A DNA stretch of 64,000 nt, taken from the NCBI RefSeq assembly GCF_010672455.1, contig NZ_JAAHGO010000011.1, positions 4,903-68,902 of the forward strand, given 5' to 3'. Every line of letters starts with the position of its first letter. The stretch's first letter is position 1. The position numbers were made by a program, and so were the translations under genes. This DNA is from Okeania sp. SIO2C9 (lineage in GTDB: Bacteria > Cyanobacteriota > Cyanobacteriia > Cyanobacteriales > Microcoleaceae). A model generated the notes under the pieces. The model was not told the origin of the DNA, did not search any database, and saw only the letters and a list, made by a program, of their open reading frames with translations. This document shows, in pieces, positions 169-3,652 of this stretch.

Positions 169-732
169 TTAATCTCCCAATATTTCATCAACAGTAAAAG
201 TCACATTAGGCAAAGCTTGAATTGTTACAGTTTCACCGCTCTTAAAAGTCTGCACAATTTCATAACCATTCGCAGTAGGTTGTCGATAAACTTCCAGACA
301 TTTTTCAGTCAGATTCACCAACCAAACTTCAACAATATTATTCTCAGCATATAAAGGAATTTTTACTTCTTGGTCATATTTAACTGTTGTATCTGACACT
401 TCTATGAGGAGAAATACATCTTCCGGTTGAGGATGTTGAGTCTGATAAAAATCTGGTCGTCGTTGCAGCAAACTTATATCTGGTTCTGGTTCAGAATTAT
501 TATTCAATCTCACAGGATTTTGAATTCTCACAGTAACAGTTTTTGCTAAACGCAAAAAGAATAGTTCGTTAATACGGTCCACACAAGCTGCGTGATGAAT
601 ACCAATAGGGGACATTTTGACAATTTCTCCTCGGATTAGTTCTACTCGTTCATTTTCAGTTAATATTCCTGCTTCCAGCATTTTATAGTACTGCTCTACA
701 GTAAATAGTCGTCGCAATAATTGTATAGACAT
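169..732 (-). CDS. Uma2 family endonuclease (DUF820)
   Basis: A protein of 187 residues with the Uma2 (DUF820) layout: an N-terminal helix (FTVEQYYKMLEAGIL), then ENERVELIRGEIVKMSP, PEPDISLL and VFLLIEVSDTTVKYDQEVKIPLYAENNIVEVWLV in broken order along the chain. The acidic/Lys residues in PEPDISLL and LLIEVSD fit the PD-(D/E)XK-like active site known for the family. ATG at 732 is chosen over a TTG two codons upstream because AAGGAG lies 6 nt before it. A paralogue starts at the left edge of the window, so this is a tandem pair. Uma2 genes are very common in cyanobacteria and often act as solitary genes of unknown purpose; no partner gene is seen here. Confidence 0.9.
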   Translation of the reverse strand: MSIQLLRRLFTVEQYYKMLEAGILTENERVELIRGEIVKMSPIGIHHAACVDRINELFFLRLAKTVTVRIQNPVRLNNNSEPEPDISLLQRRPDFYQTQHPQPEDVFLLIEVSDTTVKYDQEVKIPLYAENNIVEVWLVNLTEKCLEVYRQPTANGYEIVQTFKSGETVTIQALPNVTFTVDEILGD

Positions 733-887
733 TTCCAACTCCTTAAGAATAGTTACATGAATTTGCTTATATATAACAATTATATTTACGATAAATATTC
801 TTGCCTAACTTTAAAAAGCGTTTTAGTCCGGAATGCTCCGCAAACAGATACCATTATCTATACACAAATTTTTAAGCTGGTAGCTAG

Positions 888-1793
888 TTAACTTGTTAAT
901 AGTTCAATCAAATCCTCAGTTATCGGACAACCTGTTTCCCTTTCAAAATGAAGAAACATCGGGCTAAAATTCGCCTCCAAGAAAACAAAGTCTCCATTAG
1001 GTTTAAATCGCCAATCAATACCAGTCCATTTTAATCCGAATGCTTTAGTAATAGCTAAACATTGTTTTTTCATATCCTCTGGTGTTTCTAAATAGATTAA
1101 TTTTGCTCGTTTATCTTCCCGAAAATCTAAGGAACTACTCCGAATTTCAGCAGAATAAACTTTTTCTCCAATCACATAACTACGAATATTTGTACCAGGA
1201 ATAAATTCTTGGATAGTTACCGGAGAAATTCTTAATGCTAATTTCATCCGATTAATTTCTAGATGTTCTTTCGTTAAAAATTGAGTATGAGAACCTCCAT
1301 AAACAGGTTTAAAAATTACATCTTTAAATGTTTGAGAAAATTCTAAAATTTCATCAGCATTATTAGTAATAATAGTCGCGGGAATAGTCACGCCTATTTT
1401 ATTAGCTAAACTTAATTGCAAAGGTTTTTCTTTATGAAATTCATAAGCATCCCAACTATTCACCCATTTTTCAGGTTTAGACCGCATAAAAGAACGTAAT
1501 AAACCCATCGAATCATTAACTGCTATTCTCTCCTGATATGAATCAGTTAATTTCGGAACATTTACCCCGGCAAAAGTCCGCCAAAAAATTTTATTTATAT
1601 CTGCTAAATTCCATTTTCTGCCATCTGGAAATATTAAACATCCTGTGTGACTAATAGGTTGCCAAGAAATTTTTAACTTAGTGGGAAATAAACGAGTATC
1701 TAAATAATCAACTGTTATTCCTTTTTCCATCAGAGACTTTTTGAGATGGGCAGCATGAATATCTTCTTCACTGCCGAGGATTAAAATATTCAT
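888..1793 (-). CDS. ATP-grasp ligase, probable graspetide macrocyclase
   Basis: A 301-residue ATP-grasp protein. Residues 1-110 form an N-terminal domain of the kind that binds the peptide in RimK/MdnC-like ligases. The ATP-grasp fold follows: the nucleotide-binding lysine in FKPVYGGSH (about 161-169), the hinge strand TIQEFIPGTNIRSY (193-206), and the metal-binding GIDWRF and FLEANFSP (258-278, Glu273 and Asn275). It lies downstream of, and on the same strand as, a repetitive precursor full of TTxxxxEE cores (2408-3652). In graspetide (microviridin/plesiocin) pathways such ligases join Thr/Ser/Lys side chains to Glu/Asp side chains with ATP. The assignment as a macrocyclase rests on this pairing; the ATP-grasp fold alone is certain. 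No ribosome-binding site is obvious before the ATG. Confidence 0.85.
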   Translation of the reverse strand: MNILILGSEEDIHAAHLKKSLMEKGITVDYLDTRLFPTKLKISWQPISHTGCLIFPDGRKWNLADINKIFWRTFAGVNVPKLTDSYQERIAVNDSMGLLRSFMRSKPEKWVNSWDAYEFHKEKPLQLSLANKIGVTIPATIITNNADEILEFSQTFKDVIFKPVYGGSHTQFLTKEHLEINRMKLALRISPVTIQEFIPGTNIRSYVIGEKVYSAEIRSSSLDFREDKRAKLIYLETPEDMKKQCLAITKAFGLKWTGIDWRFKPNGDFVFLEANFSPMFLHFERETGCPITEDLIELLTS

Positions 1794-1800
1794 TAAAGTT

Positions 1801-2407
1801 ATACCAATTTGACAACTGTTTGCTACAAATAGTTAGGCTATTTCTTAGGACTCAGGAGTCAGGACTCAGGAGTCAGAATGAATTGCTTTGCTCCCATTTT
1901 TTAGTCGTAATTTATCTTTTTAGTCAAAGGGACATCTCCTGTCAAGTATTTTATAACAGTCGAAGCAAAGGTTAGGACAGATCAAAAACTTAAAACTCAG
2001 ACAAGGTAATACTTTTCCTTCTTCCTTCTTCCTTCTTCCTTCTTTCTTCTGCTATAAAGGAAGAAAGGGAATGAGAAAGAAAAGGAAGACTTGGGAGAAA
2101 AAAGCGTAGATATTCAGGACTTACCCATGAGGTACAAAAAACTAGGATTTGAGATTGCTTCCCTATCAGTAGCTTCGGACGAAAATACCTTAGTATTGCG
2201 TAATACCAAATTGAAATGAAGCTGCATAGAATAATCTTTCAAGCATAATTGACTTCAAGCATAATTGACCGCAGGTAAGCGTAGATAAAAATAGATCGAT
2301 TTAATGAATTTCATCATTCTATGCAACCTCAAATAAAACTGGTATAAGTTCTAATATTATGAGTTTGAATATATTTCTGCTTACAAGTCTACTTTCCCAT
2401 TTATTAA
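1801..2407. repeat. Repeat-rich spacer between precursor and ligase genes
   Basis: There is no credible gene here. The spacer holds a reversed, degraded copy of the ATACCA...TGGTAT element (from 1801, with TTTGCTACAAATAGTTAGG and an AAAGGGACATCTCC block), short CAGGACT/GGAGT tandem runs near 1850-1880, a CTTCCTT run at 2008-2050, and an inverted-repeat element at about 2209-2345 (ATACCAAATTG...GCATAGAAT against ATTCTATGC...AACTGGTAT). If precursor and ligase are co-transcribed, all of this is in the mRNA. Confidence 0.55.
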
Positions 2408-3652
2408 CTAAATAAAATTAAGGTTTAAATTATCTAGAGATGAAACATTTTCTATGATCGCAATCAAATCTCCTGATACAGTAGATATATTAACTGAATT
2501 CTTAACTATTTCAAAACGATAATCATTCAAACTTCCTGATAACTGAATTCGGTCTAAAGGAACATCAAAATTTTGAATTAAAGCAAAGTCTAAATCACCA
2601 AAACCAAGATAAAAAGGCGACCCTGGGGAAGAACCAAGTATAAATTGATCTACTCCTTCTGTTCCCGAACTACCAACTAATATATCAATTTCTCCCGTTC
2701 CCAAATCACTAGGTATAACTCGGTCGTTGATGAGGTCATATCCAATAACACTAACACCAACAATTCTGGTATTGTTGCCGAAAGCATTAATAATATCATT
2801 ACTATCATTGTCAGTAAAAAAACCAATGCGTTCAATTTCAAATTGTCCAAACAGAATGTAATGTTCTAAAGCAGAACTAAATTCTCCTCTATTGATAGCA
2901 ACATCAATACCAGGATAAGATTGCCGATAAATCTCTTCATTAAAATCTCCACCTTCCTCTCCTATAGCTAAAGTAGTGACACCACCTTCTTCAGAACCTG
3001 GTTGAGTAAGAGTTCCATTATTAATAGGAGTAGCAAAACCACCTTCTTCCCCTATTGCTTGAGTTGTTGCGAAACCTTCTTCAGAACCTGGTTGAGTAAG
3101 AGTTTCATTATTAATAGGAGTAGCAAAACCACCTTCTTCCCCTATTGCTTGAGTTGTTGCTTCTCCCGGTGGCACTCCTATTGGAGTCATACCACCTTCT
3201 TCTCCTATTGCTTGAGTGGTTGCGAAACCTTCTTCAGAACCTGGTTGAGTAAGAGTTTCATTATTAATAGGAGTAGCAAAACCTCCCTCTTCTCCTAGTG
3301 CTTGAGTTGTTGCTTCTCCCGGTAGCATTCCTATGGGAGTAAGACCACCTTCTTCTCCCAGCGCTAGAGTCGTAGGTACAGGAAGATTACCACCTTCTTC
3401 TCCTATTGCTAAAGTAGTTGCTATAGCTTCACTGGTACCCCCTTCTTCTCCTAGTTCTAAGGTTGTAGCTATCAGTTCGCCACCATTTTCTGAATCATCA
3501 AAAGCTTCTGTTGTAGCACCACCTTCTTCCCCTGTTGCTAAAGTAGTTGCTATACCTTGAGAAGGATCATTAGGAGTATTACGCTTAGGTTCAACTTGAC
3601 TTTTTTGTAAAGACTCAAGAGTCTCTAGGTCATTCTCAAATGGATGTCTCAT
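2408..3652 (-). CDS. Multi-core graspetide precursor fused to a secreted-type C-terminal domain
   Basis: 414 residues. Residues 1-35 look like a charged leader (PFENDLETLESL). Residues 36-235 carry 13 core-like repeats. Nine are canonical TTxxxGEEGG (starting at about 36, 63, 79, 94, 115, 145, 166, 196 and 226). Three are a TLTQPGSEEG variant (133, 184, 214) and one is degenerate (TTEAFDDSENGG, 47). TTxxxxEE is the core signature of plesiocin-type graspetides, in which Thr and Glu side chains become esters. Residues 236-414 resemble a module common in secreted cyanobacterial proteins (YPGIDVAINRGEFSSALEHY, then FILG and FYLGFGDLDFALIQNFD). Precursors are normally short, so the fusion and the number of cores are unusual. 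AGGA lies a few bases before the ATG. The ATP-grasp gene follows 614 bp downstream. Alternative: an unmodified secreted repeat protein. Confidence 0.8.
   Translation of the reverse strand: MRHPFENDLETLESLQKSQVEPKRNTPNDPSQGIATTLATGEEGGATTEAFDDSENGGELIATTLELGEEGGTSEAIATTLAIGEEGGNLPVPTTLALGEEGGLTPIGMLPGEATTQALGEEGGFATPINNETLTQPGSEEGFATTQAIGEEGGMTPIGVPPGEATTQAIGEEGGFATPINNETLTQPGSEEGFATTQAIGEEGGFATPINNGTLTQPGSEEGGVTTLAIGEEGGDFNEEIYRQSYPGIDVAINRGEFSSALEHYILFGQFEIERIGFFTDNDSNDIINAFGNNTRIVGVSVIGYDLINDRVIPSDLGTGEIDILVGSSGTEGVDQFILGSSPGSPFYLGFGDLDFALIQNFDVPLDRIQLSGSLNDYRFEIVKNSVNISTVSGDLIAIIENVSSLDNLNLNFI

Follow-up and report, generated by a model that had tools for sequence, protein, structure and literature searches.

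Graspetides are mostly regarded as small peptide natural products. The core motif of plesiocin, an inhibitor of serine proteases, is TTxxxxEE, whose Thr and Glu residues are paired in an outer and an inner ester. Plesiocin carries tandem cores with two Thr-Glu esters in each repeat and is tetravalent (PMC12291112); it adopts a ring-within-ring hairpin and is more potent the more of its motifs are cyclised (PMC13097080). Here we describe a locus in a 64-kb stretch of the genome of Okeania sp. SIO2C9 (317 contigs, 10,878,141 bases), referred to below as the window, in which the gene for a 414-residue protein with a tandem array of such cores and a C-terminal module is followed by an ATP-grasp ligase gene. 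We consider it likely that this is a two-gene graspetide locus, whose PsnB-like ligase makes Thr-Glu rings on an intact, exported and multivalent protein.

The locus resembles plesiocin and its ligase PsnB in the tandem TTxxxxEE-type cores and in that PsnB is the best match of the ligase in the PDB. Unlike tetravalent plesiocin, it has 12 or 13 cores within a single 414-residue protein, a C-terminal module and no Gly-Gly in the leader. Long precursors with repeated motifs have been described for RODEO graspetide groups 34 and 35, the latter with loci of ligase and precursor only, and for corallotide (group 15), with a precursor of about 22 kDa, KxxxD lactams and an oxygenase (PMC13097080); the accessible part of that source describes no fusion to a folded module for any of them. 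The initial annotation of the window had proposed a new architecture. Long, repeat-rich precursors are thus already in print, and what stands of the proposal is the fusion to a folded module, of which we have seen no printed example: in the literature searched, mostly without subscription journals or supplements, RTX-like or Calx-beta domains were nowhere described as fusion partners of graspetide cores. In the multi-core microviridin pair AMdnA/AMdnC, a single ligase works distributively on three cores of one chain, and distributive action on several cores is likewise described for PsnB (PMC5934393). Unlike AMdnC, the window ligase stands apart from the microviridin-type ligases, which form a clade of their own.

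Core array and predicted ring pattern

Open reading frame (ORF) analysis confirmed the two central elements of the initial annotation, the 414-residue repeat protein and an ATP-grasp gene downstream of it on the same strand, 614 bp away (Table 1). The precursor gene starts with ATG, preceded by AAGGA on visual inspection, and encodes a 35-residue leader, a 200-residue core array and a 179-residue C-terminal module. In the array (residues 36-235), nine cores have the form TTxxxGEEGG, three read TLTQPGSEEG and one, TTEAFDDSENGG, is degenerate. The pattern TT....EE was observed nine times, whereas 10,000 shuffles of residues 1-235 yielded 0.125 copies on average and at most 3, so that the array is not a product of chance. 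Part of it has undergone recent tandem duplication, with repeat units 90 and 153 bp long (98% and 93% matches) lying within 2984-3358. The linkers between cores vary in sequence and length, and the only two Lys of residues 1-235 are both within the leader.

The first Thr of the TLTQPGSEEG cores is replaced by Ile or Ser in some relatives (EIITQ, EILTQ, GSITQ) and retained in others (ETITQ, GTFTQ), whereas the Thr before Gln is kept in every unit listed. These cores are therefore best read as xTxxxxEE, with one predicted ring each; together with two for each of the nine full cores, about 21 rings are predicted in the 414-residue protein.

Covariation between core positions was analysed in 87 distinct units from 32 precursors, each required to have T2, E7, G9 and either A4 or G6; a looser scan contained non-core noise, and the stricter set was used for the statistics. 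E8 is missing in 13 of the 19 units without T1, compared with 3 of the 68 units with T1 (p 1e-8, with rows that are not independent). As T1 and E8 tend to vanish together, the covariation favours nested esters, an outer T1-E8 and an inner T2-E7. The mirror test, with T1 and E8 fixed, has low power, T2 or E7 being lost in few units (4/66).

To gauge selection, each codon was assigned to a class from the window sequence only, seven relatives served for comparison, and the ratio of nonsynonymous to synonymous substitutions (dN/dS) was pooled. The predicted cross-link residues T1, T2, E7 and E8 of the full cores gave 0.02 and the core Gly residues 0.05; variable core sites gave 0.49, linkers 0.56, the leader 0.57 and the C-terminal module 0.46, all of these being values from pairs that share branches, so that counts are not independent, and from a repeat alignment that favours matched motifs. 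The ligase, pooled over five relatives, is under purifying selection (0.16).

ATP-grasp ligase

Comparison of the ligase with graspetide ligases gave TIGR04187 (ATP-grasp ribosomal peptide maturase) as the best NCBIfam match, at 143 bits and below the model cutoff of 350. Its best PDB match was 7drm (110.6 bits, E 9e-31), which is PsnB, the plesiocin macrocyclase (PMC10452190), followed by MdnC (77.6 bits). Ligases of four Okeania records are 95-97% identical to it. In a first tree of 45 rows, long branches pulled PsnB towards the one RimK row; the tree was rebuilt with 42 rows, leaving out RimK, 9bou and the ligase of a second locus of the same genome, on contig C7 (see below). In the 42-row tree, 16 cyanobacterial ligases, among them that of the window, form a clade (100/100), the five fusion-locus ligases group together (98/100), and MdnC, MdnB and CdnC are united with their kin in a separate clade (100/100). 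A microviridin assignment was rejected, as the locus has a single ligase and it lies outside the latter clade. The nearest tree relatives adjoin TTxxxxEE precursors. No grouping with unrelated ligases was thus found, the enzyme standing apart both from the microviridin ligases and from the single RimK row; its membership of the graspetide synthetase family and the graspetide reading of the locus both appear well supported.

The ligase matches RimK-like models too (PF08443, 2.9e-9; TIGR00768), and the evidence from the motif is all indirect, as would also be expected of an enzyme that modifies the repeats in another way, by RimK-like addition of amino acids to Glu or by amides, with no Thr esters. 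We consider this highly improbable: glutamylation predicts neither the dN/dS of 0.02 at the Thr and Glu of full cores nor the T1-E8 covariation, residues 1-235 offer no Lys outside the leader, and the best structural relative of the enzyme is PsnB.

Other ATP-grasp enzymes were encountered as well. The ligase of C285, from a three-gene operon, lies outside the clade of the window ligase. A three-gene operon at L030:6965-9730 has an ATP-grasp enzyme other than that of the window, with ligase relatives similarly placed in G338 and no TT....EE array seen.

Leader and C-terminal module

The leader motif HPF is common to the window protein and the short precursors that accompany ligases of the same clade. 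Of 16 precursors of 75-600 residues, the window protein included, 15 have it (the exception, beside the G360 ligase, has YPF), as do all six further ones (L160, L161, L164, L165, L168, L169). It half fits the motif Phhx(1,2)h described for graspetide leaders in PMC8939145, Asp or Glu following PF in most. No Gly-Gly occurs in the leader of the window protein (residues 1-35), nor in those of L009-L013, L160 and L161; their short relatives mostly carry one ahead of the cores. A double-glycine leader site is found in about half of graspetide precursors and is not obligatory (PMC8939145), and its absence here suggests that no double-glycine peptidase cleaves off the leader.

The C-terminal module finds matches in 36 of 120 genomes of the order (cutoff 1e-5), at 30-58% identity and in open frames of 75-4285 residues. 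Among the proteins inspected, it often terminates proteins of YLxxNPD units, with which the window protein shares its last 179 residues; unlike them, it contains TT....EE, a pattern absent from all 34 other module-matching ORFs in the loci checked, some of these clipped by locus ends. The N-terminus has signal-peptide-like hydropathy in two of the four module relatives tested (L113, L120), and RTX repeats (PF00353) were weakly matched in 3 of 12 module proteins scanned (best 0.0018). A motif scan for exporter ATPases around the module in eight relatives revealed no ORF with Walker A and LSGGQ together. Walker A occurs in a single ORF of L155, the LSGGQ tags of L153 and L155 sit inside the module proteins themselves, and ORFs of 825-867 residues adjoin the module protein in L154 and L159. 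PDB matches of the precursor to p70 and Rex (E 0.0015-0.032) were set aside as likely composition or chance, and PF17273 (3/12 module members, best 6.9e-5), PF22137, PF05952 and other weak Pfam matches were treated as chance.

Linkage of core arrays and ligases across genomes

We surveyed 386 genomes of the phylum with a DNA pattern for TTxAxGEEG, which was found in 23 of them; the reversed pattern, used as a control, gave 2 hits. The motif occurs in 19 of the 23 genomes with the ligase (E 1e-35 or better) versus 4 of the 363 others (Fisher p 1e-24, from 2 x 2 counts compiled by hand). One of these four, G010, has an adjoining ligase at E 2.5e-25, so that 20 of the 23 motif genomes possess a ligase. 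Motif and ligase lie within 1.2 kb on one contig in 19 of these 20; in G118 they are at the ends of two contigs, with HPF leader and core in different frames (L080:1251-1554), a leader remnant. The initial annotation had named repeat proteins without an ATP-grasp neighbour as evidence that would speak against a graspetide locus. None came to light, as the three motif genomes free of ligase (G085, G370, G201) hold one hit each and none in a repeat protein: a 43-residue ORF, a response-regulator-like protein and no ORF of at least 30 residues, respectively.

Four ligase genomes lack the motif. G336 has a ligase with internal stops and G360 a degenerate 133-residue precursor, while G333 and G252 have a 174-residue neighbour with TTLAYPSDDA-type cores. 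In L144, L145 and L076, a ligase of the f31 clade lies beside a 174-residue protein, the L144 copy of which has TTLAYPSDDA repeats, a TTxxxxDD-like variant.

Repeat proteins bearing this C-terminal module are common in cyanobacteria, and the window protein might accordingly be an ordinary acidic surface repeat with a ligase gene beside it by coincidence. The gene linkage weighs strongly against such an origin, as do the dN/dS of 0.02 at Thr and Glu, the absence of TT....EE from the 34 other module-matching ORFs, and a Trichodesmium locus (L163:1-2507) in which array protein and ligase both look broken; we find it hardly credible.

Proposed product

The two genes, the relationship of the ligase, its linkage to the array, the selection on Thr and Glu and the T1-E8 covariation are established at the level of sequence, and the likely explanation given at the outset would proceed from them as follows. 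The ligase would bind the N-terminal HPF leader and, core after core, activate Glu side chains with ATP and esterify Thr hydroxyls. Each of the nine full cores would receive a nested pair of rings, T1-E8 and T2-E7, and each of the three single-Thr cores a lone T2-E7 ring, about 21 in total. The product would remain one polypeptide, at least for a time, as rigid hairpins strung on flexible linkers. The C-terminal module would carry the ringed chain outside the cell, where it would most likely be a multivalent, protease-resistant protein, and probably a protease inhibitor like plesiocin.

Several observations weigh against this explanation. T2, E7 and E8 of the single-Thr cores have a pooled dN/dS of 0.56; this seems to stem from the two more distant genomes (L160, L161), where these cores read SEAG and AEAG. 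In the five closer genomes, the 42 aligned key residues of these cores are all identical, with 3 gaps (gapped sites, 27 in linkers and 3 at single-Thr key positions, were set aside in the conservation alignment). The precursor and ligase genes are 511-1817 bp apart across the window and L009-L013 and hence form no tight operon. G474 has a broken ligase and a precursor that is still open, and the intact ligase of G479 has upstream only a 45-residue HPF leader-like ORF without cores (L167:5558-5695). The tree leaves the branching order of PsnB, the 16-ligase clade and the f31 clade unsettled, so that 'PsnB-like' is founded on alignment score and cores, and not on the tree. AlphaFold models were too poor for fold searches, with a mean predicted local distance difference test score (pLDDT) of 45.4 for the module (7 sequences) and 46.7 for the ligase (8 sequences).

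Export is affected too. The 414-residue protein has no Pfam match at E up to 5, and thus none to PF00353, and hydropathy indicates no signal peptide, for which reason we can only infer from the C-terminal module that the protein would be placed outside the cell. The claim that the module is of an exported type stands insofar as it is shared with other cyanobacterial proteins, some of them of secreted type; the window protein itself shows neither of these direct signs. No Walker A or LSGGQ motif is present in ORFs of at least 150 residues in the window or L028, pointing to the absence of an ATP-binding cassette (ABC) exporter nearby, though the scan covered no adaptor or outer-membrane parts, and exporter genes may lie elsewhere in a genome.

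Finally, GG follows every full core, so that the chain could be cut. The large protein would then be a delivery form, cleaved between cores (e.g., after GEEGG) into small bicyclic peptides, and the module a disposable tag for secretion or solubility. Apart from the trailing GG, the leader GG of short precursors in the same clade, the variable length and sequence of the linkers and a trypsin-like peptidase protein (with GUN4) downstream on the window's contig (L028:2473-3753) are in keeping with such processing. It fits poorly with the GG-free leaders of the window protein, L009-L013, L160 and L161, with the six scanned neighbours at L010, among which no peptidase family was found (one had no match at all), and with a module that is under moderate constraint (dN/dS 0.46) and retained in 5/5 genomes of the genus. 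Release of small peptides is on balance unlikely, and we prefer an intact ringed protein.

Distribution of the fusion and related precursors

The fused architecture is real and occurs in nine genomes of the family. The search in related genomes found a close module (E 1e-35 or better) in 9 of 61, comprising 5/5 genomes of the window's genus, 3/7 of a second genus and one bin; several of the nine are the same genomes as the named loci L009-L016. Ligase sequence lies beside the fusion in all nine, full in seven and clipped by a contig end in G497 and G498. Among named records, fusion and ligase were found again in five from Okeania (L009-L013). The ligase was detected at 1e-60 in 21 family genomes, of which G467, G469, G470 and G481 were left out when precursors were read. 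In the sister genus g2, the precursors found (G039, G465, G468, G472, G474) are 101-104 residues long and combine the same leader with two cores; none was seen in G336, in G479 (leader only) or in G480 (ligase at a contig end).

Arrays are also joined to other parts. In G111 (L068:5910-8623), next to a ligase of the same 16-row clade, the leader is followed by three Calx-beta stretches (E 2.7e-34) and then by cores some 370 residues past HPF. Contig C7 of the window's own genome carries a second, unrelated two-gene locus (L027:8477-10197), where a 275-residue precursor, composed of a 110-residue N-terminal part and 12 full TT....EE cores, overlaps or abuts the 5' end of the gene for a distant ATP-grasp ligase. 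Close relatives of this precursor have 16 cores in G452 and 15 in G438, and weaker core-less relatives of its N-terminal part are present in G404, G419 and G441. The four f31 precursors counted have 247-560 residues and 2-13 full cores with long spacers between; L073, L142 and L143, from genomes of about 2 Mb of the same phylum, have precursors of 396-560 residues and 7-13 full cores, again with long spacers.

A wider reading, which we put forward tentatively and with some doubt, is that core arrays are a portable protein-building element, combined on more than one occasion with folded domains of different kinds (the RTX-like C-terminal module, a small N-terminal domain and the Calx-beta stack that separates leader from cores). 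The products would be exported, multivalent surface or matrix proteins with around twenty rings each, and not released peptides.

Gene neighbourhood

Downstream of the ligase, the window's contig encodes a TPR protein, Uma2 and a GUN4 protein that also has a trypsin-like peptidase domain. The GUN4 gene (L028:2473-3753) lies just outside the window, on the same strand as the ligase, and is not among the scanned L010 neighbours; it is of interest because plesiocin inhibits serine proteases. The six neighbouring ORFs of the L010 locus correspond in Pfam to an rRNA methylase, a phosphoesterase, DUF1995, Uma2 and an arginine deiminase, with one matchless. Uma2-type genes stand in tandem by the locus in the window (169-738) and in L009-L015 (PF05685 in the scanned copies); in L015, four similar ORFs stand side by side.

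Table 1 Features of the putative graspetide locus in the window
Feature	Position	Strand	Basis
Predicted multi-core graspetide precursor fused to secreted-type module, 414 residues	2408-3652	-	ORF and repeat analysis
Leader, residues 1-35, HPF motif, without Gly-Gly	3548-3652	-	HPF shared among precursors
Core array, residues 36-235	2948-3547	-	Repeat count and shuffling
Core TTLATGEEGG	3518-3547	-	
Degenerate core TTEAFDDSENGG, divergent form in 6/6 aligned Okeania-record proteins	3479-3514	-	Alignment
Core TTLELGEEGG	3437-3466	-	
Core TTLAIGEEGG	3389-3418	-	
Core TTLALGEEGG	3344-3373	-	
Core TTQALGEEGG	3281-3310	-	
Single-Thr core TLTQPGSEEG	3227-3256	-	
Core TTQAIGEEGG	3191-3220	-	
Core TTQAIGEEGG	3128-3157	-	
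Single-Thr core TLTQPGSEEG	3074-3103	-	
Core TTQAIGEEGG	3038-3067	-	
Single-Thr core TLTQPGSEEG	2984-3013	-	
Core TTLAIGEEGG	2948-2977	-	
C-terminal module, residues 236-414, as in secreted-type cyanobacterial proteins, RTX-like in some relatives	2411-2947	-	Homology
Predicted PsnB-like ATP-grasp graspetide synthetase, 301 residues	888-1793	-	Profile, PDB, tree, dN/dS

Implications

Graspetide chemistry is apparently applied here to whole multidomain proteins, with the array recombined with different folded modules; in one relative (G111), three folded domains stand between leader and cores. The T1-E8 covariation provides an argument for the ring pattern drawn from sequence alone. If this picture is true, ester macrocyclisation would extend from peptides to large proteins, such precursors would be natural templates for ligases acting far from the leader, and the role of multivalent graspetides in nature would become directly testable.

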